A stretch of 26,797 nucleotides of DNA from Planctomycetota bacterium (lineage in GTDB: Bacteria > Planctomycetota > Phycisphaerae > UBA1845): positions 1 to 26,797 of the forward strand of contig JAJRSP010000134.1 of assembly GCA_024278775.1 (NCBI GenBank), in the 5' to 3' direction. Of the stretch, positions 200-17,564 are shown piece after piece; position 1 is the first letter of the stretch; every line of letters starts with the position of its first letter. Below the pieces are notes generated by a model. It did no database searches. It was not told where the DNA came from and saw only the letters and a program-made list of their open reading frames with translations. Both the position numbers and the translations under genes were made by a program.

Positions 200-2116
200 T
201 TATTCGCTCGCTGGGGCTAACACACGCTGATCGCCGACGCGACGAGTGTACCCCACCCGGTCCAGGTATTCCAAGAGCGGCACGACGAATTTACGACTTG
301 ATCCCAGCGCCTCGCGGATTTCGGATACGGTGATCCCGCCGGAGGCTTGGATATGCCGCGCTACCGTCTCCCGCAGGGTCTGCTCAACATCCGTATGCAG
401 ATAGGTTTTACCATCGATCCGTACCAGATCACCCAGCGCGACGGCCAATGTCGCCAGCCGTTCGACTCGTTTTCGGTCGGTCGAAGCCTTGGCCGCCAGC
501 GCCTCCACCGAGGGCGGCTGAAACCCGGCGTCCTTCAATTGACGCACGATGGCGAGGAGGATTTTCTCATCGGCACCGGACAACTGCGGCGCAAAAGAGG
601 GGAGGCAAAGATAACGCCCCAGCCGTTTGAGCCGCTTCGACTTGACAAGCATCTCCACCAGCGGCTTGGCGATCTCACGGCGTGTCAGTCGTTCCAGCCA
701 ACCGACGACGGTATCGCTTAGCCGTCCCGGGCTGTCCGGCTGCTTGCGATGAAAACGCTCCAGCCAACGAAACAACCGCTCCGTCAGATCGTCGACGGCG
801 GCCGGCACCGCATACACCTCCGTCCCCGCCACCGGACACCACCGCCCGGATGATTCCAAAGTCGCCAATACCGATTTCAGTTCGTCCGGCTCAACACCAG
901 CTTGGCAACAGAGACTCAGATCACTTGGTCGGTGAAACCCGGCGGCCCGCAACACCTGCTCCAGCCGATCCGCCGGCGAACCCGTATCGAGTGCGGAGAG
1001 TGCCGCACGCTCATCCTCCGAGGTCCGGCGACGCCGACGCGCCAGCGGTCGCAACACGACACCGCCTCCGATGGTACGCGTGGCGTTTTCGTCACGGATG
1101 ATAAATCGCTGGCCGTAGGCAGCCGTGATCGCCACGCCGCCGCGAAGCTGAGCATAGTCAGATTCACCCGGCGCGAGTGTTTTTCGATCGAGCAGCACCA
1201 CGCGGACGGGCACCTCGGCCGTGCCGATTTCCAAACGGACCACGCTCGTTGATTTGAGTGGTTTACCATACGTCGATAGGCATTCCAGCTTGACGTCCAC
1301 CATGCGTGACGGCTGAAGATAGCCCGGTGTGGCCAACTCGGCCCCGCGTTCCAAATGCGAGCGATCCACACCGCTCACGTTGATGGCACAGCGCCGACCG
1401 CGAGGTAGCGCGGCGTGTGATTGTCCGTGTGCCTGCAACCCACGCACCCGGCACGGCACATCCGCCGGCCACACCTGCAAAGTGTCACCCGATGACACCA
1501 CACCGCGCTGCGACGATCCGGTCACGACGGTGCCGCGACCCGCCACGGTAAACACGCGATCCACCGTCATGCGAAACGGACCGCTTTCCGGCGTCTGGGT
1601 GACCTGCGCCGCCGCCGAAAGCAGCGCGGCTTTGAGTGCGTCCAAACCCACACCGGTGACGGATGAGACCGGGCAAACGGCCGAGCCGGAGAGCGACGTC
1701 CCCGCGATAAAGTCGGCTACCTCCTCCGACACCAACTCCACCATGTCCTCATCCACCATGTCGGTTTTCGTCACGGCGACGACGCCGTGTCGTACGCCGA
1801 GCAGATGCAGAATCTCGACGTGTTCGACGGTTTGCGGCATGACGGAATCATCTGCGGCGACGACAAGCAAGCCCACGTCAATGCCCGTCGCCCCGGCCAC
1901 CATAGTTCGCACAAATCGCTCATGACCCGGCACGTCCACCACGCCGAAGCAGACGTCTTCGACCATCAGCTCCGCGAACCCAAGATCGATCGTCATACCG
2001 CGCCGCCGTTCTTCCGGGAGCCGGTCGGTGTTCGTTCCGGTCAGCGCACGAACGAGCGAGGTCTTTCCGTGGTCGATATGACCGGCCGTACCGAGGATGT
2101 AGTGCCGCTTGGGCAT
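200..2116 (-). CDS. selB: SelB, selenocysteine-specific translation elongation factor
   Basis: This GTPase delivers Sec-tRNA(Sec) to the ribosome at UGA codons followed by a SECIS hairpin. The 638 residues show the SelB signature near the N-terminus: G1 GHIDHGKT (12-19), then the [20 protein letters not shown] switch region, G3 DVPGHE (61-66) and G4 TKTD (116-119; the Thr variant is usual in SelB). Beta-barrel domains follow, and the C-terminal part has the length and character of the winged-helix modules that bind SECIS RNA. I chose the ATG at 2116 because SelB proteins usually start a few residues before [13 protein letters not shown]. An in-frame ATG at 2161 and a GTG at 2191 are alternatives, and none has a convincing ribosome binding site. 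It is transcribed away from the selenoprotein gene at 2276 and is followed by selA. Confidence 0.95.
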
Positions 2117-2202
2117 TCCCGTGTCAGAAATTGTCGCGTCTAATTCAGTCACAAAAGCCATTATTGTGAGTGTGGTCCTCTCCGCAACCAACGCCTATCC
2201 AA

Positions 2203-2230: not shown

Positions 2231-2275
2231 CTCGTGACAACCTTGCCGGGGTTGGACTTCTTAGGAGAGAACAAG

Positions 2276-2953
2276 ATGCCACGACAGATGGGTAAGCAGT
2301 TGGCACGGGCGGCGATGGTCGTTCTGGTGTTGTCTACGTGCGCCTGCGCGCAGCAAAAACAGAAGGACGACATTCGAAAAATCATGAAAGATCACAAGAA
2401 CAAGAAGGATGCGGCACCGGCGGTAGGCACGCGTGCCCCGAACTTCAAACTGAAAACCATGGGCGGCGATAAAGAGATCGAGCTGGCCTCGTTCAAGGGT
2501 AACAAGCCCGTTGTGCTCGTGTTCGGAAGCTATACGTGACCGCCGTTTCGGCACCAGGTGGGTGCCCTCAATGAGCTCGCCAGTCAGTACGGTGATGTCG
2601 CCGAGTTCTTCGTCGTCTATATCAAGGAAGCCCACGCTGAAGACAGTAAGTGGGCGATCCCCATCAAGGGCGAGGAGAAGATTTACAAACCCAAGAACCT
2701 CGACGAACGAAAATCACTCGCCGCGAAATGCATGACCAAGCTCAAGGTCAAGCTGCCGTGTCTCGTCGACCATATCGATAATGCGGTGGCCGACGCCTAT
2801 GCCGCCTGGCCGGATCGGATCTTCGTCGTGGATGACGCCGGCAAGATCGCCGTTCGCGCGGAGCGCGGACCGTGGGGATTCAAGCCGGGCGTGGAAGCCG
2901 CCACGACATGGCTCGCCGAGCGATTTCCGGAAAAAGCCGGCGGCACGAACTGA
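2276..2953 (+). CDS. Secreted iodothyronine-deiodinase-like selenoprotein (Sec at in-frame TGA 2537-2539)
   Basis: Two open stretches in one frame are separated only by TGA at 2537-2539. Read as Sec (residue 88) they give a 225-residue protein. Around the TGA the product is VLVFGSYT-U-PPFRHQ, then DVAEFFVVYIKEAHAED (107-123) and WPDRIFVVDDAGKI with GPWGFKP near the end. Known: animal deiodinases have NFGSCT-U-P, then DFLVIYIEEAHASDGW, then DRLYV and GPWNYNP in the same order, within a thioredoxin fold with an active-site Sec. Start: ATG 2276 with AGGAG nine bases upstream. The N-terminus is a signal peptide (MPRQMGKQLARAAMVVLVLSTC, possible cleavage after ACA), so the enzyme should act outside the cytoplasm. 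A GTG at 2234 is less likely. The role in bacteria is not established: reductive dehalogenation or peroxidase-like redox chemistry are possible. It is divergent from selB-selA. An ordinary gene caller would split or truncate it. Confidence 0.9.
2537..2566 (+). promoter_or_regulatory. Bacterial SECIS element following the Sec TGA
   Basis: Ten bases after the TGA (2537-2539) a perfect six-base-pair stem forms: GGCACC (2550-2555) with GGTGCC (2561-2566), closing a five-base AGGTG loop (2556-2560). Exactly 16 bases separate the TGA from the loop. Known: bacterial SECIS elements sit directly after the UGA inside the coding region, with the apical loop about 16-37 bases downstream and a G among the first loop bases bound by the SelB winged helix. 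All these conditions are met. No folding program was run. Confidence 0.8.
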
Positions 2954-3153
2954 TCCGAAACAGTGGTGTCTTTGCCGCAACGCGTGCCCACGGCACCCGC
3001 TACATACAGGTTTACACAACTCTTTCCCTGACTTGCGACATAGGGGCTATGTCTGCTTAGCGCATGCTCCCCAAAGGGATCGCTCGGCGGTACAGTGGAA
3101 AGGTTGAAACGGTAACGCGGATTCTTTTGACCCAAGGAATAGGACCAACACAC

Positions 3154-3783
3154 GTGACAGTATTCTCACACCATTCGTTGCGTCGGGGCATCATCTTGTC
3201 TGTCCTTACGCTTTCCCTCGTCACCAACGTCTTCGCCGGCGTCCGAGAAAAGTTTAGTAAGCTCGAAGAAGAAATGGAGGCCGCCTCGAAACGCTATGTG
3301 GCCGCCCTCGACGCCTGGGATGCAAAGAAACGCAAAGATGCCAAGCCGGTGGATATACGTCAGCCGGTGCTGGCGAAAATGGATGCGCTCGCCGATGCCT
3401 CGCTCGATTCCGACGACGGCGCGTACGTGGCCGTGCAGTGTTTCGTATGGTCATGGATGTTTGATATCGACCTGCCCCAACTGTTCCACCGATTTCAACG
3501 ACTGGCGCAACATTATCCGGATGATGATCGCATGCCGGAGTTGCTCGACATGATCCCGCTGGCCTATCCGGTATCGGCCACACCGGACGATTGGACCGGG
3601 CAGATCAAGCACATCGTGGAATCGGCGAAACGCAAGTCGATCCGACTGGCTGCGCTCACGAGTATGGGGCAGGTCTTTATGAAATCCGAAAACCCCATTC
3701 AGGCCAAGGCGACATTCGAAAAAATCGTGAAGCTCGCACCCAAGACCGATCTATCCCAGCGTGCGGAAGGACTCATCTACTAA
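3154..3783 (+). CDS. Secreted helical/TPR-like protein, N-terminal part of a thioredoxin-fold protein interrupted by TAA
   Basis: GTG at 3154 has AGGA nine bases upstream and gives a clear signal peptide (LRRGIILSVLTLSLVTNVFA, then GVREKF). The next ~185 residues are helical: a charged KLEEEMEAASKRY segment and a C-terminal TPR-like unit (LTSMGQVFMKSENPIQAKATFEKIVKLAP). The frame ends at TAA 3781-3783 after RAEGLIY and reopens at once in the same frame as LEHLQVGMTAPTF, the usual entry to a TlpA-type thioredoxin domain. Known: bacterial redoxin proteins of this layout read a Y-E-L-E-like linker here, so GAA to TAA (one base) would explain the stop. I infer one ancestral gene, 3154-4218, broken by a nonsense change or a sequence error. 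An earlier ATG at 3064 has no signal peptide logic. It lies 200 bases after the selenoprotein on the same strand. Confidence 0.7.
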   Translation: MTVFSHHSLRRGIILSVLTLSLVTNVFAGVREKFSKLEEEMEAASKRYVAALDAWDAKKRKDAKPVDIRQPVLAKMDALADASLDSDDGAYVAVQCFVWSWMFDIDLPQLFHRFQRLAQHYPDDDRMPELLDMIPLAYPVSATPDDWTGQIKHIVESAKRKSIRLAALTSMGQVFMKSENPIQAKATFEKIVKLAPKTDLSQRAEGLIY

Positions 3784-3798
3784 CTCGAACATCTTCAG

Positions 3799-4218
3799 GT
3801 GGGCATGACCGCGCCGACATTCACTGCGCACACGTTGGATGGAAAAGAGATTTCGCTCGACAGCCTTCTCGGTAAAACCGTGCTGCTTAACTTCTGGGCG
3901 ACGTGGTGCCCGAGTTGCGTGGCGGAAATCCCCGACCTCAAAAAGGCGGACAAACACTTTTCCGGGAAACCGTTTGTCATTATCGCGGTGTCGTTGGATG
4001 ATGACAAACGGGGTGTGGTTGACTTCGTGAAGGAATCGGGCTTCCCTGGTATCCATACGTGGGACGAAAAGGGGTCGGACAATCCGGTGTCGGAGCTATA
4101 TCGTGCCGAGTTTCTACCCACCTGGTACTTAATTGACGGCAAGGGAATCATCCGTGCGCGAGACCCTTTCCACGACAAGCTCATACCGGCTATCGAGGCG
4201 GCGTTACAAGGAAAGTAG
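3799..4218 (+). CDS. Thioredoxin-fold (TlpA/ResA-like) domain, C-terminal part of the interrupted protein
   Basis: About 139 residues form a complete TlpA-like thioredoxin fold: APTFTAHTLDGKEISLDSL, LLNFWATWCPSCVAEIPDL with the redox-active WCPSC pair, FVIIAVSLDDDK, and the cis-proline region EFLPTWYLIDGKGII. Such domains reduce or exchange thiols in the periplasm. It is in exactly the same frame as the upstream secreted segment and separated from it by TAA (3781-3783) and 15 bases. Alone it has no signal peptide and only a poor start (GTG 3799 or ATG 3805), so as a free protein it would be cytoplasmic. Reinitiation after the stop is possible, but the simpler view is that it is the C-terminal half of the 3154-4218 gene. 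It converges on the gene ending at 4250. Confidence 0.75.
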   Translation: MGMTAPTFTAHTLDGKEISLDSLLGKTVLLNFWATWCPSCVAEIPDLKKADKHFSGKPFVIIAVSLDDDKRGVVDFVKESGFPGIHTWDEKGSDNPVSELYRAEFLPTWYLIDGKGIIRARDPFHDKLIPAIEAALQGK

Positions 4219-4249: not shown

Positions 4250-7081
4250 TTAGAAATGGGGATTGCGGTACGGCTTTTTCGCTTCGTATAGCGGAAGTGC
4301 TGCGCGAAGATCCGTTGCTGTCGCCCTATCACCCTGTCGGGTGGCCAGCTCGATCGCTCGCACAGCCGTGGTGACCGCGCCGGAGAAGTTCCCCGTTTCA
4401 GCTTGGGCGGCCGCTAACGCGGCGAGTACGTCAGCGCGGGAGCTGCCGGCGAGTTGGTTTGCGTGCTCAGACAACGTCAGCGCTGTCGCCCCATCCCGAA
4501 GCGACACCACTGATGACGTGGCCAGTATCTTGGCGAACCGAGCGAGCAGCGTCACATTGTCCGGTGCGTGTGTGACGCCAATGTTCAAAATCCGAACCGC
4601 GTCGGCTGTCCGTTTGTTGAGCAGGTAGTAAGTGGACAACTCGTCGATCGGCGCGAAGTACCCCGGCTTGATCGCGATCGCTTCCTCATACAGCCGCACG
4701 GTCTCGTCGACTGCTCCACGGTGCGCCGCCGCGACGCCGAGCATGTACCGTGCTTCTGCGGCCACGGCGTCGATCGCCTTGGCTTTCGTCAAGACCGAAA
4801 CCGCCGCGGACAAGTCATTCTGCTGAACCAACACCGTGCCCAGGTTAATCAGCGCGTCGCCGAAATCCGGTTTGAGGTCAACAGCTCGCTGGAAATGACG
4901 CCGCGCGGCATCATACTGCTGCAAACCGGCAAACGCCAGACCCATATCATACTGCACGGAGGCATCCTCCGGTCGCTGCCGAACCACTTCACGATAATGC
5001 TCAATCGCCTCGGCCGGTCTACCCTGCCTGGCGAGAAGGCCCGCAAGTGCGAGACGCACATCGACCAGGTTTTCGTCTTTAGCGATCGCGTCGCGATAAG
5101 CCCGCAACGCCTTGTCCATCTGACCACTACGTTCGTACGCCTGTCCGAGCTTGGCGTACACGTCGGCCCCGGCCGAGTCACCGCGAGTCACCGCTTCATA
5201 TCGCCGAATCGCCTCGGCCGTATCCCCCTGAAGCAGCGCCAAATCACCAAGACCGGAAAGCGCCATGGCGTTCCTCGGGTCGGTGGCCAACGCCGCCACA
5301 AAGTGCGGTTGTGCTTCCTTGCTCTTGCCCGTTTGCATCAACACGGCCGCCAGCGCACAACGAAGATCGGCCGAGTGCGGCTTCTTCGTGACTAGGCTTT
5401 GCAACATATCCAGCGTTGCCGCGCCCTGTCCCGTGCGGGCGGCGGCCAAGCCCACCGCCGCCGGTAGCTGCTCATCCCAGGGGGGTCGCAGCGGAGATTG
5501 CAAACGCCATCGCGCCACGTCGGCCGCTGGAGAAAACGCCTCCGGCTGCTGCAACAGTTCGATGAGCATATCCAAGACCCAAAAATTGTCCGGATCCTCC
5601 GACAGCACCTCCCGAATTAGTCCGGCCGCCATCGACCACTGACGCCCCTCGATCCGCATCGAAGCCCGCGTGGCCTTGTCATGCAGCGCCACCATCGCCT
5701 TCGGATCGGCCAGCGGACCGGTGTCGTCTTGGCTTGGCCGGGCACCACCCACATATCCCAGCGCCGCGAGTTGCCGGATGACGCGCGCATCACTGCTGGA
5801 TTCCCCAACCGCCAGCGCCGGAGCGTCCGGAGCACTCTTTTGGGCGTCTCTCAAAGCGCGAACAAAACGTGCGTCGGGTTGGGTACCCCAGGCCAACAAG
5901 TTCGTTGTCTCCGTGGGATCGGTGACCACGTTGTAGAGTTCCGGCGTCGGCGCGGCGATATACTTGCTTTCGCCAAGGATCACGCCCTCCAGCTCGCTCC
6001 AACCGTATGTATTGAGCGGAAGCTGCGTTTCAAAGTAGATCGCTCGTGAGTCGTCTTGCTTGGCCGCACCCTCTGTCGGCAGCGGCACCCCGTCCAGCCC
6101 ATAGGGTTCTTTGATCCCCAACCGTTGAATCAGCGAAGGCATCACATCCACCAGCGACACGGGCGCATCCACCACGGTGCCGCCGGCTTCGTCGCCAAGC
6201 GTCGTGACAATCAACGGAACCTGAATCGTGGCGTTGTAGACGAACAGACCGTGAGTCCACTCCCCATGCTCGTGCAGGCTTTCGCCGTGATCGGCCGTAA
6301 ACACCACGAGCGTTTTCGTGCCGTTGGAGGCGTCACGCCGCTCGATTTGAGTCACCAGCCGCCCCAACTCCCCATCGGCGAAGGCGATTTCCGCATCGTA
6401 CGCCTCCTGCTCGGTAGCTCCCTTGTGAAGTCCCGGCGGCGCGTACGGCGAGTGCGGATCAAAGTAGTGAACCCAGAGAAAAAAGGGATCGTTGTCCCGC
6501 GTGTTCAGCCATTCAGCCGCGGCGTCGGTCACGGCTGAGGCCGGTCGTTCGGCGAAATGGAGTCCGGTGGTCGGATGCGTCTCGGAAATCCGGTCGTCGT
6601 AGTTGTCAAACCCCTGGTTCAGCCCATATCGAGCGTCCAGCACGACCGCCCCGACCACTGCCCCCGTGCGATAGCCGGCGTTCCGTAACAATTCGGCCAG
6701 GGTTTGCGCCTTTTCGTCCAGCTGGCCCGCCCCATTATCTCGAAGCCGGTGATGAGTCGGATACAGTCCCGTCAGGAGCGACGTGTGTGACGGCAGCGTA
6801 ATGGGAGCCGCGGCGTAACACCGCGTGTATCGAACGCCTTTGGCGGCCAGCGCGTCGATCGTGGGCGTTCGGATAGCCGCGTTGCCGTAACACGAGAGGC
6901 GATCAGCGCGGGTGGTGTCGAAAGTGACGAGCAACACATTGGGGCGCGATGCTGCCGATCCGCTTGAAATCCCTTCTCCCGTCGTTTTTTCGTGGTGTTC
7001 ACACCCGCTACATACGAAGCCGATTAGCAGAACCACAAGCCCCACCCCACGCGACCAGGACCGCGCCGATATACCGTTCAT
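4250..7081 (-). CDS. Lipoprotein with alkaline-phosphatase/sulfatase-superfamily domain and C-terminal TPR array
   Basis: The 943-residue product starts with a lipoprotein signal (VGLVVLLIGFVCSGC, lipid Cys 27). Residues ~47-480 are a sulfatase-like fold: NVLLVTFDTTRAD (metal ligands D55 and following), LPSHTSLLTGLYP (96-108), and FTADHGESLHEHGEWTHG. The nucleophile position, normally Cys or Ser in C/S-x-P-S-R and matured to formylglycine, is Thr here (TLPSH, 95-99), so a classical sulfatase is unlikely; a phosphohydrolase or phosphotransferase with Thr nucleophile is possible. From ~560 to the end there are repeated 34-residue TPR units (AEAIRRYEAVTRGD, KALRAYRDAIAKD, AIEHYREVVRQRPED). The longer frame reaching 7357 lacks a signal peptide, so I start at ATG 7081. 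Predicted to be anchored at a membrane facing the periplasm. Substrate unknown. Confidence 0.85.
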   Translation of the reverse strand: MNGISARSWSRGVGLVVLLIGFVCSGCEHHEKTTGEGISSGSAASRPNVLLVTFDTTRADRLSCYGNAAIRTPTIDALAAKGVRYTRCYAAAPITLPSHTSLLTGLYPTHHRLRDNGAGQLDEKAQTLAELLRNAGYRTGAVVGAVVLDARYGLNQGFDNYDDRISETHPTTGLHFAERPASAVTDAAAEWLNTRDNDPFFLWVHYFDPHSPYAPPGLHKGATEQEAYDAEIAFADGELGRLVTQIERRDASNGTKTLVVFTADHGESLHEHGEWTHGLFVYNATIQVPLIVTTLGDEAGGTVVDAPVSLVDVMPSLIQRLGIKEPYGLDGVPLPTEGAAKQDDSRAIYFETQLPLNTYGWSELEGVILGESKYIAAPTPELYNVVTDPTETTNLLAWGTQPDARFVRALRDAQKSAPDAPALAVGESSSDARVIRQLAALGYVGGARPSQDDTGPLADPKAMVALHDKATRASMRIEGRQWSMAAGLIREVLSEDPDNFWVLDMLIELLQQPEAFSPAADVARWRLQSPLRPPWDEQLPAAVGLAAARTGQGAATLDMLQSLVTKKPHSADLRCALAAVLMQTGKSKEAQPHFVAALATDPRNAMALSGLGDLALLQGDTAEAIRRYEAVTRGDSAGADVYAKLGQAYERSGQMDKALRAYRDAIAKDENLVDVRLALAGLLARQGRPAEAIEHYREVVRQRPEDASVQYDMGLAFAGLQQYDAARRHFQRAVDLKPDFGDALINLGTVLVQQNDLSAAVSVLTKAKAIDAVAAEARYMLGVAAAHRGAVDETVRLYEEAIAIKPGYFAPIDELSTYYLLNKRTADAVRILNIGVTHAPDNVTLLARFAKILATSSVVSLRDGATALTLSEHANQLAGSSRADVLAALAAAQAETGNFSGAVTTAVRAIELATRQGDRATATDLRAALPLYEAKKPYRNPHF

Positions 7082-7597
7082 CTCGGATTTCCGGGTCTGT
7101 GACCGCTGCGGTGGGTGGCCCCTCGCTTCGGAAGTGGAAGACTCGCACTGGTTCCCCGGCCCGTATCCCCCGCGGATAAACCCCGGGGTGGCTCGTCCGT
7201 GATCGGATTCGAATGAACACGGGTAAATGTAGACTTCATCGGTGCCCGTGGGACTCAGCTTGCCAGACGGTGCGTGTTGGGGTGGTGGTCCTGTCATGGT
7301 GTGAGGTTCATCTCGCAAAGACACTCGGCCGCAGGGATCGTGCGGGATGGACGCCACGACGCATCTTGGCTCCCGGTTCCCCTAGTTCATCGGCATCTCC
7401 ACCCCGGTCAGGCTGATTGTAGTCCGGCATCTTCACCCCGCCAACCAACCCGCAGGCAACCGTGTACACCGGCACAATTCACACCCGATCACCGGTTCGC
7501 AGGCGTTGTCGATCAGGCGTCGGCGTGGTAAGACTGTATCCGGTTGCTGTGACGCGAAGGCGTGGGGACCAACCGCGAGACCACGAGAATCTGCTTC
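7082..7597. other. Intergenic region between two divergent genes
   Basis: About 516 bases between the lipoprotein start (7081, minus) and yggS (7598, plus). The minus-strand frame stays open to 7357 but reads as low-complexity, Pro-rich sequence without a signal peptide, so I treat it as leader. No convincing promoter, terminator or RNA gene was found. Confidence 0.5.
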
Positions 7598-11822: not shown

Positions 11823-12353
11823 TTAGTTGGCAAGTGGATCGTGTACCCCGTGGACGCCGCGACGACGGATCAGGACCGTCCCCGCGATGAGGAGCAACAG
11901 GAGCGTGGTGGTCAAACCCCAGTCCGATACGGTCGGAACCGGCGGGGGGAGGCAACGTGATCCTGCGATGGTGGAGTTGTTTCCATCGATCGAGACGATA
12001 CCAGAGAAGCATGGTGTCGAGCCGCCCGGGTCGGCCGGCGGGGTGATCGTATAATGGAGCGTGACCGGAATGTCATTGAAGTACGGTCCCCATTTCACCT
12101 TACCGTTGACGGCATCCCACGTTCCGTTGTTGTCAATGTTAGAGATGTTCGTCCAGCCGGTGGGTGTTAAATCTTCCACGCCGAAGGCGATTGTTCCGGT
12201 GGGAGGTGTCACCAGGATGGACACGGTAAACGGCTGGTTGGTAGACGAAAAATCAGATAGGTCTCGCAGAGCAACCTGTGCGCAGGCATCACCGACCAAG
12301 CCCAGCACGCACCACGCCGCCAATCCGAAAACGTAGCTACCCCGTGTCTTCAT
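11823..12353 (-). CDS. Secreted protein with one KVKWGP module and a C-terminal VPTVSDWG sorting signal
   Basis: 176 residues: signal peptide (1-25, ending DACAQ), an extracellular module (about 28-126) with GVEDLTPTGWTNISNI, NGTWDAVNGKVKWGPYF and YTITPPADPGGSTPCFSGIV, then VPTVSDWG (139-146), a hydrophobic helix (147-162) and RRR. Known: the last part matches IPTL/PEP-CTERM-type sorting signals, in which a short motif, a transmembrane helix and a basic tail are processed by an exosortase-like system for surface attachment. The module recurs twice in the next gene upstream (12430-15006). The two genes are 76 bases apart on one strand and may form an operon. Start ATG 12353 has GGAGTGG about ten bases upstream. 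The binding target is unknown. Confidence 0.85.
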   Translation of the reverse strand: MKTRGSYVFGLAAWCVLGLVGDACAQVALRDLSDFSSTNQPFTVSILVTPPTGTIAFGVEDLTPTGWTNISNIDNNGTWDAVNGKVKWGPYFNDIPVTLHYTITPPADPGGSTPCFSGIVSIDGNNSTIAGSRCLPPPVPTVSDWGLTTTLLLLLIAGTVLIRRRGVHGVHDPLAN

Positions 12354-12429: not shown

Positions 12430-15006
12430 CTACTCGTCTTGAATCGGTGCGAAAATAATAGGTTGATTAAACCCATCAAAGGAGACCGTTCCGCGAAACT
12501 CGGAAAACGCGGTTTTGCTGTTCGTAGTTCGTGCCTTAAAGCGGACCACGCGGGACAGATTCTCGAACAGCGGTCCCCATTTGACTTTACGGTTGGTTTC
12601 GTCCCATGTGCCATTATCACTGATCGCAGTAACTACCCACTCCTTGGGTACCCTCATTTCCAGGCCGACGGCCACGACGTCGTCATCGGCATATATGGTG
12701 ATCGGCACGCCTAAGATTCGTGATCGACCCTGAGTTCGCACGTTCAGCGAGTGTACGACGGCCCTACTGCCGTGTGCCAACGCCCGGGTCAATTCTGTTG
12801 GCTGACGGCGGTGGTCGTAGACCTCTCCGGCGGTGTTACCTCCCTCAAGGAACCCTGCCGTGGAACAACAACCCGGGTTGGTTGGTGGAGCCACGAGAGA
12901 TACCCAGTTCAGCAGCGTGTTGTCCCAGCAATGAAATTCACCGCTCTGCCAAAGAAAGGCAGCCCGGGTCATGGCGGCGATGTCATCGTTGCAGCCGGAT
13001 TGCCATGCACAGGCGTAACCGATCATTTCGCAAAGTTCGACGCGACCGTCTCCGCAGGTACCGCAGGCGCAGTCCGCACAGCCGGCTGGACAGGACGCTT
13101 GCGGCTCATCCGCCGGGAGGAAAGGACATAGCATCGCCTGGATACAAAGATCTCCGCAGGTGATCTCGTTGTTGTTGCCGTTGGCGGAACTGACGCCGTC
13201 AAAGCAGACCTCGCCGGTGGCCCCAGCGGGCGGTGTGATGTCGTAGGTGACTTCCATCGGGAAGGGGGGGCCGAACAACGGTCCCCACTTGACCTTTTGG
13301 GTGGCGGCGTCGTAGTTCCCACCGTTACTAATGTTGGTGATGTTGGTCCAACCCGTCGGTGGTGAGTCTTCTATGCCCAAGGCGGTGGTGTCTGCGTTCG
13401 GTTGAAGTACAATATGGATCGTTTTTGTCACGCCGGGTTCATAGGATGGTCGCGGCTGCGAGAGATCGCGCACAGTGAAACAAACCGGCGGTGGCACGAA
13501 GGTCAGTTCAAACGAACCCATATCTACGATGGCGGAACCGTTACCGTCACCATCCAGTATACGATTAGCACCATCGAGATCCGTAGTGGTTCGGGTGGCG
13601 GCGTTGTTCCCGATATCGAGGCAGGGCGACACGGCAGACAGGTGTAGATCGTCGTCGCCCGTTCCCGCAAGACCATCGTTGCCCAGCCTATCTACGAACA
13701 GCGGATCATCGCCAATGTTGTTGGCACCGGTGTAAACAGTCAGACCTTCTATGCAGGAGGAGGATATGGTCACCGTACCCGAACTCGCGGCGACCTGGGC
13801 CGCCTCTATCGTTCCGGAGCCGGCCGTGTTCTTCCAGAGGATGCTGTTGGTGACCGAGAAGGTCGCGCCCTGCGAGGCGATCCCGCCGCCGAAAAAAGCA
13901 TCGTTAGACGCAAAGGTGCTGTTTGTAACGTCCGGAGTGCCGCCGACAGCCCGAAATCCGCCTCCCTCGATCAACGCGATGTTGCCGTGGAATAAGGCGT
14001 TGGCGAGATCCGTATTGCCGGAAGTCGTATAAAGTCCCGCACCAAAGGAAGCGCGATTCGCCAGAAAGTGTGCGTTTTCGATCGTGATGCTACTGTTCTG
14101 GCTGAAAAGGCCGCCACCACTTTCCGCGCCGTTCGACTCAAACGTGCAGCGCACAAATTGTGGTTGACCGTTAAGGTTGAGCACCCCCCCGCCGAAACCG
14201 CTGGAGGATCCGAAGTAAGCGAAATTCGACCGAAACGTACAATCAGTGAAAGTGGCCTGGGAGTTCAAGTCGTTGTAGGCACCGCCGCCATTGATGGCAA
14301 TGTTGGCGACCCACATGCAGGAGTTGATGGTCGGACTGCCCACCACCAGATACATGCCGCCGCCGTTTCGATTTGCGTTGGTGCCTGTGGCGTTTCCGCC
14401 GGAGATCGTGAAGCCGTGCAATGAGGCGGAAGGGCCGTTCCCGGAACTGGTGACCACGTGGTAGGTGTTTTCGCTGTATCCTGTGGCGGCGGCCAACAGA
14501 GCAAAATCCACTCCATCGACTACACTGTCTCCGTTTTGGTCGAACCCGACGCACGGAGCCGTAACGGCCGATGCCCCACCCGTGTAGCATGTAGCGAAAT
14601 CATCGAAAAGGGCGACGTTGCCATCATTTCCGTTGAGGTCACCGGATAGGATCGTTTGATGGGCGATCCAATCTTGTTCATCCGGGACCGCCGCCCCACA
14701 CCCGGCGTAGCCACCTTCAATAGCCACGCCGTCTGCAAGCGAAAAGGTGGCCTCGCGCGGATCTGCGAGTCCTGCGGTATCAGGTGTATACGTGCCGTTG
14801 GCAACCTGAATGACCGTATTGGGACCAGCGACGGAGAGCGCGCCAGACAGCCCTCTGTACGCCGTACACCATGTCGTCCCGTCTTCCGTGGGCCCGTTCG
14901 CATCACGATCGACATAGATTACTGACTGCGCACGCAGCGAGCCCGTGGCCGACAGCACACATGCCGACACCACAAACCACACGCGCAGATGGATCAGTGG
15001 GTTCAT
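12430..15006 (-). CDS. Large secreted right-handed beta-helix protein with two KVKWGP modules
   Basis: 858 residues. Signal peptide 1-26 (MNPLIHLRVWFVVSACVLSA, ending LRAQ). Residues ~28-505 are a parallel beta-helix (pectin-lyase-like): YVDRDANG..TWCTAYRGLSGAL, then turns with repeated GGG and SNxA units (NGGGMYLVVGSP, GFGGGVLNLNGQP, SGGGLFSQNSS) and a closing DIGNNAA..DLDGANRILDGDG. Inside it, residues 155-171 (FDQNGDSVVDGVDFALL) look like a dockerin-type calcium loop. Two copies of the KVKWGP module follow (~510-618 and ~753-850), flanking a Cys-rich region (630-672). Unlike its neighbour it has no C-terminal sorting signal. Start: ATG 15006 with GGAGGGG and GAGGAG upstream; the frame to 15063 lacks a signal peptide. 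Role unknown; a surface or adhesion protein is a fair guess. Confidence 0.85.
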   Translation of the reverse strand: MNPLIHLRVWFVVSACVLSATGSLRAQSVIYVDRDANGPTEDGTTWCTAYRGLSGALSVAGPNTVIQVANGTYTPDTAGLADPREATFSLADGVAIEGGYAGCGAAVPDEQDWIAHQTILSGDLNGNDGNVALFDDFATCYTGGASAVTAPCVGFDQNGDSVVDGVDFALLAAATGYSENTYHVVTSSGNGPSASLHGFTISGGNATGTNANRNGGGMYLVVGSPTINSCMWVANIAINGGGAYNDLNSQATFTDCTFRSNFAYFGSSSGFGGGVLNLNGQPQFVRCTFESNGAESGGGLFSQNSSITIENAHFLANRASFGAGLYTTSGNTDLANALFHGNIALIEGGGFRAVGGTPDVTNSTFASNDAFFGGGIASQGATFSVTNSILWKNTAGSGTIEAAQVAASSGTVTISSSCIEGLTVYTGANNIGDDPLFVDRLGNDGLAGTGDDDLHLSAVSPCLDIGNNAATRTTTDLDGANRILDGDGNGSAIVDMGSFELTFVPPPVCFTVRDLSQPRPSYEPGVTKTIHIVLQPNADTTALGIEDSPPTGWTNITNISNGGNYDAATQKVKWGPLFGPPFPMEVTYDITPPAGATGEVCFDGVSSANGNNNEITCGDLCIQAMLCPFLPADEPQASCPAGCADCACGTCGDGRVELCEMIGYACAWQSGCNDDIAAMTRAAFLWQSGEFHCWDNTLLNWVSLVAPPTNPGCCSTAGFLEGGNTAGEVYDHRRQPTELTRALAHGSRAVVHSLNVRTQGRSRILGVPITIYADDDVVAVGLEMRVPKEWVVTAISDNGTWDETNRKVKWGPLFENLSRVVRFKARTTNSKTAFSEFRGTVSFDGFNQPIIFAPIQDE

Positions 15007-15128
15007 CTCCTCAGCCCCTCCGAAGCGACCTCGGTGTTCAGTTTTTCTTACCCCAATCGTCACCGCGCCTTGCTGGTGCCGATTCCCGTTGACGGGGAGA
15101 TCAAGACTTCGCTACTGAAAGCACCTCC

Positions 15129-16288: not shown

Positions 16289-16296
16289 TGCATAGT
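16281..16296 (+). promoter_or_regulatory. Putative ArsR operator
   Basis: ACTATG (16281-16286) and CATAGT (16291-16296) form a perfect six-base inverted repeat around TTTG. It covers the -10 and the predicted transcription start of arsR. Known: ArsR/SmtB repressors bind such short dyads over their own promoters and let go on binding arsenite or antimonite. Binding here is inferred. Confidence 0.6.
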
Positions 16297-16324
16297 GACG
16301 CAAATGAGCAAAAGAAGGACCAAG

Positions 16325-16660
16325 GTGGCGAAGAACCCGTGTTGTGTCGGGAAGTTGCTGGACGCTCGGTTTTTTCGGGCGTTGGGTGATCCCAATCGGA
16401 TTGCGCTGTTGGATCGGCTGTCTTCCACCGGTCGACCCTGCTGCGTGTCGGAGTTGTCCGAGTGCTGCCCGACGGATCTATCGGTGACCTCGCGGCACCT
16501 TGTCCTATTGCGAGACGCGGGCATACTCGACGCCGAAAAATGCGGCAAAGAGGTACGCTACACTGTCCGCTTTACCGAACTGGCCGGAAAACTTCGGGCG
16601 ATGGCCGATGCCATTGCCGACTGCTGCCCGCATTCGGGTGGCCACACCAAGGAGAGTTGA
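16325..16660 (+). CDS. arsR: ArsR-family metalloid-responsive repressor
   Basis: 111 residues forming a winged helix: FFRALGDPNRIALLDRL, CCVSELSECCPTDLSVTSRH (helix-turn-helix), LVLLRDAGIL, and the wing CGKEVRYTV. It is Cys-rich: C6-C7 at the N-terminus, C39-C40 and C47-C48 at the recognition helix where classic ArsR uses ELCVCDLC to sense As(III), C73, and C100-C101 near the end. The exact arsenic-binding trio cannot be assigned by eye. Start: GTG 16325 has GAAGGA (16314-16319) five bases upstream and lies after the predicted transcription start. ATG 16304 and GTG 16295 are in frame but lack a ribosome binding site. arsM follows after four bases, so the operon should be induced by arsenite. 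Confidence 0.9.
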   Translation: MAKNPCCVGKLLDARFFRALGDPNRIALLDRLSSTGRPCCVSELSECCPTDLSVTSRHLVLLRDAGILDAEKCGKEVRYTVRFTELAGKLRAMADAIADCCPHSGGHTKES

Positions 16661-16664
16661 ACTA

Positions 16665-17564
16665 ATGAGCAAGAAGGATGACATTCGTGAGTCCGTGTCC
16701 CAGGCCTACGCCGACGCCGTGAACCGCCCGAGCCAAACGCCGGGTCTGTGTTGCGAGCCGGTGCAAAAGGGCGTCGTGGTGAAATCAGCCGGTTACGGCA
16801 AAGAGGAACTGGCCGACCTGCCGGCCGATGCCGTCGAAAACTCCTTCGGCTGTGGGAATCCGCTGGCCTTTAGTGAAGTCAAAACGGGTGAGGTCGTAGT
16901 GGATCTCGGCAGTGGAGCCGGGATCGACGTGCTGATCGCGTCCAAGAAAGTCGGTGATTCCGGTCGGGTCATCGGTATCGACATGACGGATGACATGTTG
17001 GCGCGTGCGCGGGCCAACATCGAAAAAGCCGGCGTGACGAACGCCGAGGTGCGTAAAGGATATATCGAGGCGTTACCGATTGACGATGCTTCGGTGGATT
17101 GGGTCATCTCCAACTGTGTCATCAACCTGTCACCCGACAAGCCGAAGGTGTTCGCGGAGATCGCGCGCGTGCTCAAGCCGGGCGGCAAGATGCTGGTGTC
17201 GGACATAGTGGCCCAGGACTTGCCGGAGGATGTGCTCGCGGATCAGCGGCTCTATTGCAGTTGCGTGTCCGGTGCTATCAGTGAGGCGGATTATGTGCAG
17301 GGCCTGCGCGATGCGGGCATGGACCCCGTCGAGGTGCGCGAACGCATCGTGTATGATGAGTGCCAGCTAGCGGCATTTATCGAATCGGAGATTCCCGCTT
17401 CGAGTGGTGGTGGGTCGGACGAATCGCCCTGTTGTTCCAGCTCTTGCAGTTGTGGCCCCGATGATTCAGCTACATCCAGCACCGGCCCATCCAGTGCAGA
17501 CCTGGCCAAGACCATGCAGGGCAAAATCTGGAGCGCCAAGGTGTTCGCCCAAAAACCGGCGTAG
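16665..17564 (+). CDS. arsM: ArsM, arsenite S-adenosylmethionine methyltransferase
   Basis: ArsM methylates As(III) with SAM to methylated, partly volatile arsenicals. 299 residues: SAM-binding VVVDLGSGAGIDVL (77-90) and GRVIGIDMTDDML, then DWVISNCVINLSPDK, VLKPGGKMLVSDIV and LYCSCVSGAI. The arsenic-binding Cys expected in the family are present: C63 (SFGCGNP), C151 (SNCVIN) and C198/C200 (LYCSC), plus C29-C30 near the N-terminus. The tail (from ~240) is a Ser/Gly/Cys-rich linker with SPCCSSSCSCG, seen in many bacterial ArsMs, then a short conserved end. Start ATG 16665 has AGGAG about ten bases upstream and is four bases from the arsR stop. The frame open from 16500 is only overlap. Confidence 0.95.
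   Translation: MSKKDDIRESVSQAYADAVNRPSQTPGLCCEPVQKGVVVKSAGYGKEELADLPADAVENSFGCGNPLAFSEVKTGEVVVDLGSGAGIDVLIASKKVGDSGRVIGIDMTDDMLARARANIEKAGVTNAEVRKGYIEALPIDDASVDWVISNCVINLSPDKPKVFAEIARVLKPGGKMLVSDIVAQDLPEDVLADQRLYCSCVSGAISEADYVQGLRDAGMDPVEVRERIVYDECQLAAFIESEIPASSGGGSDESPCCSSSCSCGPDDSATSSTGPSSADLAKTMQGKIWSAKVFAQKPA

Follow-up and report, generated by a model that had tools for sequence, protein, structure and literature searches.

A predicted deiodinase-family selenoprotein encoded across an in-frame TGA beside selB in a Planctomycetota contig

A stretch of 26,797 nucleotides from a Planctomycetota bacterium (contig JAJRSP010000134.1 of assembly GCA_024278775.1, referred to below as the window) carries on its plus strand, at positions 2276-2953, a gene that almost certainly encodes a selenocysteine (Sec)-containing member of the deiodinase family, as judged from its sequence and those of its relatives. 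The explanation that accounts best for the data as a whole, with a probability of roughly 70 %, is a true deiodinase-family selenoprotein that would be exported and would reduce small electrophiles in a thiol-dependent, single-selenium manner. A deiodinase-family selenoprotein had been proposed by an earlier sequence-only reading of this DNA, and it was backed here by profile and fold searches, a conserved TGA, a covarying bacterial Sec insertion sequence (SECIS) hairpin, an adjacent selB and the Sec machinery of relatives.

Read-through translation of 2276-2953 gave a product of 225 residues with Sec at residue 88 (Sec88). The frame starts at ATG 2276, ends with the stop TGA 2951-2953 and is interrupted solely by TGA 2537-2539. 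The joining of two same-frame segments across this codon, proposed earlier, was confirmed by the translation together with the coordinates and the motifs FGSYT-U-PPF, YIKEAHAED, PDRIFVVD and GPWGFKP. The sequence AGGAGAG at 2263-2269 (plus strand), found by inspection six bases 5' of the ATG, is Shine-Dalgarno-like. By mechanical calling of open reading frames (ORFs) the upstream ORF of 101 residues begins at GTG 2234, not at ATG 2276.

A genome scan returned 181 relatives, the best 80 loci of which were analysed. The codon matching TGA 2537-2539 was TGA in 73 loci by automatic motif search and in 6 more that this search had missed; L013 was the only locus of the 80 without TGA at the site and has TGC there. 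A sequencing error or homologues ending at the TGA had been named beforehand as outcomes that would overturn the proposal. The former is unlikely because 79 of the 80 loci, taken from separate records, share the TGA, and the latter does not apply, these loci being open and conserved beyond it. Purifying selection is indicated on both sides of the codon: in comparison with locus L001 the nonsynonymous and synonymous divergence (dN and dS) was 0.13 and 1.90 for the 5' part (87 codons) and 0.08 and 1.05 for the 3' part (78 codons), dS not being estimable in several of the other comparisons.

It had also been expected that standard gene calling would produce two wrong genes. This held for the downstream one, as the protein database entry from the same contig returned by a phmmer search (66 matches) is a 131-residue downstream piece (P0002); the upstream ORF, with 101 residues, falls short of the length of about 124 residues below which that search could return nothing. 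A motif search sorted the 66 matches into 39 tails, 22 proteins whose site residue is Cys, one each with Trp and Ser there, one ending at FGSYT and two unclassed. The 39 tail proteins start 2-23 residues before YIxEAH, i.e. past the Sec site, and the N-terminal piece P0067 stops exactly at FGSYT. By alignment, 25 of the 66 matches span the site, with Cys in 22, Trp in 2 (P0022 and a second match) and Ser in 1 (P0061). The Trp homologues could stem from gene calls reading TGA as Trp. The Cys homologue P0003 is 62 % identical to the window protein.

A quick tree was built from 102 rows, of which 80 are bacterial Sec forms, 20 Cys forms and 2 animal sequences. The Cys rows need at least seven changes on it; 3 of the 7 Sec/Cys changes are forced by starred branches, the direction not being given by the tree. 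L003, a Sec form, falls into one cluster with the Cys forms P0003-P0005, next to the branch of the window protein (unstarred). The tree was rooted on the two animal rows as a set outgroup and therefore makes no claim on the origin of the animal deiodinases (DIO).

Just after the UGA, at 2550-2566 of the plus strand, lies a hairpin with the stem GGCACC/GGTGCC and the loop AGGTG (folding energy -14.7 kcal/mol, z -0.95). Its position and its small apical loop containing G agree with the description of bacterial SECIS elements in PMC1088965. The window and 73 TGA loci were split by the presence of GGTC at offset 21 after the TGA, which assigned 23 to a second register and left 51 sequences (50 distinct); the 6 TGA loci missed by the automatic search were left out of both registers. 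The second register (L018, L021, L028 and 20 other loci) shows a like hairpin four bases farther from the TGA, with the loop GGTC. In the 51 sequences, the seven pairs were formed in 92.9 % of cells versus 63.1 % in shuffles, 81 cells were changed on both sides versus 22.8, and the covariation score was 0.715 versus 0.198, no value as high being obtained in 500 shuffles in any of the three cases. Further pair types numbered 21 versus 16.1 (2/500 as high). Related sequences can beat such shuffles; a slide of the partner by 1-3 columns, with relatedness kept, lowered pairing to 36-55 % and brought the score down to 0.11-0.32. The same helix was found unaided by RNAalifold. The best hairpin of the Cys form L013 in the same search was a 4-pair stem at another place, and Rfam at gathering thresholds returned only a tRNA-Leu in the window. 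The stem covaries as a bacterial SECIS element should, and the GGU in its loop is presumably what SelB reads.

These data also bear on the possibility that TGA 2537-2539 is a true stop (of the first of two genes or within a pseudogene), a sequencing error or a Trp codon of the host. TGA is normally a stop, the 131-residue tail stands as a protein of its own in the database and Trp occupies the site in 2 of the 25 homologues spanning it. Such readings were nevertheless rejected, and their probability is regarded as close to nil, in view of the TGA conserved in 79/80 loci, the selection on both sides, the covarying stem and the use of TGA as an ordinary stop. The last was seen in 3 of the 13 window ORFs checked (the selenoprotein gene included) and in 31 of 75 homologous frames (the window, 73 TGA loci and L013), the remaining frames ending with TAG (27) or TAA (15) or running off (2).

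The read-through protein matched Pfam PF00837 (T4_deiodinase) over residues 33-213, spanning the TGA, with an E value of 1e-30 and 107.3 bits, far over the cut-off of 27, and gave weaker matches to AhpC-TSA (2.5e-12) and Redoxin (1.8e-10). The best relatives of solved structure by sequence were mouse DIO3 (2e-19) and DIO2 (1.5e-18), members of the animal family that takes iodine off thyroid hormone. A fold search with an AlphaFold2 model (pLDDT 88.2, pTM 0.79) ranked DIO3 first and DIO2 second, pointing to the deiodinase variant of the thioredoxin fold. Both the family search and the fold model had been put forward with the original proposal as ways to check it, and both came out in its favour.

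The aligned active-site network comprises Ser85, Thr87, Sec88, Tyr115, Glu118 and His120, and Arg145 also belongs to it. Network roles are described for Ser123, Thr125, Tyr153 and Glu156 of DIO1 and for His202 of DIO3 in PMC9141512 and PMC7506546. On this alignment the deiodinase catalytic network is conserved, and the Cys beside Sec is replaced by Tyr86. Trp126 (Trp207 of DIO3) is present in 40 of 75 rows, and in 40 of 65 in a second alignment count.

An export signal is probable, by inspection only, at residues 1-25 (2276-2350, plus strand), where residues 10-25 include a hydrophobic stretch and ACA/QQ resembles a cleavage site; the model places a helix at residues 8-42, with low confidence at its start. 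The earlier description of the protein as secreted is thus retained as plausible.

The selenoprotein gene is divergent to selB (200-2191, minus strand), predicted to encode the Sec-specific elongation factor and matching TIGR00475 with 339.7 bits (cut-off 242.25). Downstream of selB, positions 1-149 of the minus strand hold the 5' part of selA, cut by the window end and covering about 49 residues if translation begins at the ATG assumed here. Its match to positions 1-38 of TIGR00474 is partial, weak and below the cut-off (E 0.0022); this reading is supported by L001, which shares 79 % DNA identity with the window over 2.8 kb and comes from a genome where selA directly follows selB. The Sec machinery seen within the window comprises a complete selB and the start of selA.

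Genome searches for 15 of the 80 loci detected selB over the cut-off in 14, selA in 14 and tRNA-Sec in all 15, versus 2, 1 and 5, respectively, of 14 control genomes. The same 15 genomes contain 18 PF00837 places over the cut-off, all of them with a single TGA, versus no such place in the 14 controls. A sample of 294 genomes from the phylum to which G001 belongs includes 99 with PF00837 over the cut-off and 84 with a TGA-type member. The 127 places in these 99 genomes, counted by hand with TGA scored anywhere in the place, include 109 with exactly one TGA, 18 without a stop (some of them fragments missing the site) and none with TAA or TAG. The family is expanded in one genome, G073, where each of five PF00837 places has one TGA. 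selA (E up to 1e-30) was present in 78 of the 84 TGA-type genomes versus 115 of the other 210 genomes (odds ratio 10.7, p 2e-11, kinship uncorrected). Of the 15 genomes whose members are all stop-free, 9 have selA. Six TGA-type genomes lack selA; selB is present in five of them, and G076 has neither gene.

Of the 15 relatives' genomes, 8 have the gene less than 1.3 kb from selB, the two being divergent in six (G001-G005 and G008) and co-directional in the other two (G007 and G009), and selB was found by tblastn within the available flank of 10 of the 80 loci, many flanks being short. This proximity would suit a selenium-status protein that is tied to the Sec operon, is produced only if Sec is present and has a role in selenium homeostasis. 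Such a role is very unlikely, as the linkage appears limited to certain lineages: among the matches listed for the 84 TGA-type genomes, G001 was the sole case of selB adjacency, and in G001, G124 and G186 selA lay no more than about 10 kb from the gene. A selB linkage as a general rule of the family was rejected on the same grounds, and the selAB neighbourhood recurs in close relatives.

A phage or plasmid origin was also rejected. No match was obtained in 50,697 phage records, none of 34 pattern matches in viral_contigs was a relative, and the 72,556 plasmid records gave one weak match (28.3 % identity over 66 %), annotated as deiodinase-like, from Mycolicibacterium.

In the proposed mechanism SelB would bind the GGU-loop hairpin and insert Sec88, and the protein would be exported. 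Sec88, activated by the Ser85/Thr87/Tyr115/Glu118/His120/Arg145 network, would then attack a small electrophile, either a hydroperoxide or a halogen on an aromatic ring, and take up the electrophilic atom. Because the position of the neighbouring Cys of DIO1 and DIO3 is Tyr86 here, the oxidised selenium would be restored by an outside thiol, possibly that of a downstream TlpA-like protein, or by Cys152/Cys162. A reasonable candidate for the reductant is the product of the TlpA/ResA-like thioredoxin-fold ORF with CPSC at 3799-4218 of the plus strand (PF00578, 1.1e-20), located 0.85 kb downstream of the selenoprotein gene, with a relative at the same place in L004, L005, L006 and L009 (4/80 loci). 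That a peroxide-like or similar electrophile would be the main substrate of such an exported thiol-dependent reductase is given even odds; it is favoured since the substrate-contact positions (Arg275 and Trp207 in DIO3) vary among the bacterial family members and the chemical core does not.

Dehalogenation is possible. A true reductive dehalogenase, in which Sec88 would act as in animal deiodinases and abstract iodine or bromine from halo-aromatics, either exported or environmental, agrees with DIO3 being the best fold match and with the DIO proton-relay and anchor residues being kept, including His120 (His202) and, in the window protein, Arg197 (Arg275) and Trp126 (Trp207). This specialisation is considered unlikely, as Arg197 is found in 32 and Trp126 in 40 of the 75 rows (Arg197 in 20 of 65 in the second alignment count), relatives include metagenome-assembled genomes from groundwater and a lake (by their record titles), and no halogen-related gene was noticed in the window ORF list, most ORFs of which were not searched against any family library.

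Several points weigh against the exported thiol-dependent reductase preferred here. Its partner thiol and its substrate are guesses. Arg197 is kept in 32 of 75 rows, and the position of His174 of DIO1 and His219 of DIO3 is Pro139 in the window protein and His in 15 of 75 rows; according to PMC9141512, H174A of human DIO1 is active and H174Q inactive, so that His174 is not absolutely required. The residue counts in genome loci are partly circular, the scan patterns and the site search having required parts of the motif. The Cys forms (22 of 25 site-spanning matches) imply, on sequence grounds, that Sec is not indispensable to the family. As regards the SECIS element, pairs with any double change numbered 7 versus 6.4 in shuffles and were not exceptional (266/500), and the stability of the single-sequence hairpin was unremarkable (z 0.28 over 76 nt and z -0.95 over 42 nt). 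Folding stability, not being significant, was dropped as evidence and covariation was relied on instead.

Between the selenoprotein gene and the TlpA-like ORF lies a weakly TPR-like ORF (3064-3783, plus strand; family search), a possible functional partner region with tblastn relatives in L004 and L005 and an ORF cluster with L004, L005, L006 and L009. The TPR-like and TlpA-like ORFs share one frame, split by TAA 3781-3783; the region is one ORF each in L004 (382 residues), L005 and L006 and two in L009. It was rejected as another selenoprotein because the in-frame stop is TAA. Elsewhere in the window, an ArsR-type regulator overlaps an arsenite methyltransferase ORF at 16295-17564, which is open and has no TGA; in NCBIfam, models for related ArsM proteins bear the name selenoprotein (NF041537). 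On the minus strand, neighbouring ORFs at 11823-12353 and 12430-15063 share by eye the repeat PTGWTNI..N.G..D....KVKWGP, and a 1035-residue ORF at 4250-7357 appears by eye sulfatase-like, followed by TPR repeats.

The novelty implied by the sequence-only reading was overstated. In the 2005 Sargasso Sea study of Zhang, Fomenko and Gladyshev (PMC1088965), Sec- and Cys-containing deiodinase-like sequences, 4 and 6, respectively, by its table, were reported with a bacterial SECIS and an unspecified redox function was proposed. The kind is thus known in bacteria since that year, and the window gene is a further member. Reviews of 2022 (PMC9312934) and 2026 (PMC13188914) list the family motif as UxxC, the latter stating that the functions of such proteins are largely unknown, and a 2021 study (PMC9402790) reports an EF-hand fusion of the deiodinase-like domain. 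EF-hand fusions of the domain were also seen here in L021 and L053, and a YceI/EF-hand fusion in P0067. Among the papers listed by searches of the open-licence literature, none was seen on a planctomycete deiodinase-like selenoprotein, nor was there an earlier account of the SECIS covariation, of how abundant the family is in Planctomycetota, of the UPPF site of animal type or of the selAB neighbourhood. The main text of a paper on planctomycete selenoproteins (PMC4807772) does not contain the word deiodinase.

The gene illustrates plainly how standard annotation can lose a catalytic protein, and the active site of animal deiodinases exists in many bacteria. No production of thyroid hormone is expected of bacteria, as also argued in PMC1088965; the reaction of the bacterial proteins would therefore bear on the original purpose of deiodinase chemistry. 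The 51-sequence SECIS alignment and the Sec/Cys pairs, such as the window protein and P0003, make the bacterial function directly testable. A broader idea, which we regard as a long shot, is that exported bacterial Sec-dependent reductive dehalogenases are widespread, with the SxTUPPF site, no adjacent Cys, recharging by TlpA-like proteins and adjacency to selAB in some lineages, and that the deiodinases of animals arose from this bacterial kind.

The window protein shares with the prokaryotic deiodinase-like selenoproteins of 2005 the PF00837 domain, the in-frame UGA, the bacterial SECIS and the occurrence of Sec and Cys forms; the linkage to selAB present in the window is not mentioned for them in the available text of PMC1088965. 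Its UPPF site, as in the animal enzymes, differs from the UxxC listed in the reviews, which may reflect a listing slip or another subfamily. The NCBIfam family NF038285 (deiodinase family protein) has a homologous domain (5.5e-53), matched only at positions 171-334 of a model 347 long, with 180.6 bits versus a cut-off of 250. With animal DIO1-3 (4tr3, 9h48) the window protein has in common the fold, the SxT-U-PPF site and the Tyr/Glu/His/Arg active-site network at 28-30 % identity. It differs in having Tyr86 at Cys124 of DIO1 (Cys168 of DIO3), where DIO2 has Ala, and Pro139 at His219 of DIO3, and its gene, unlike those of the animal enzymes, carries a bacterial SECIS inside the coding sequence. 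In the fold search the 1-Cys peroxiredoxin AhpE and ResA/TlpA scored about 4 Z units below DIO3; these proteins have the CxxC or peroxiredoxin motif, whereas the window protein has that of the DIO type.
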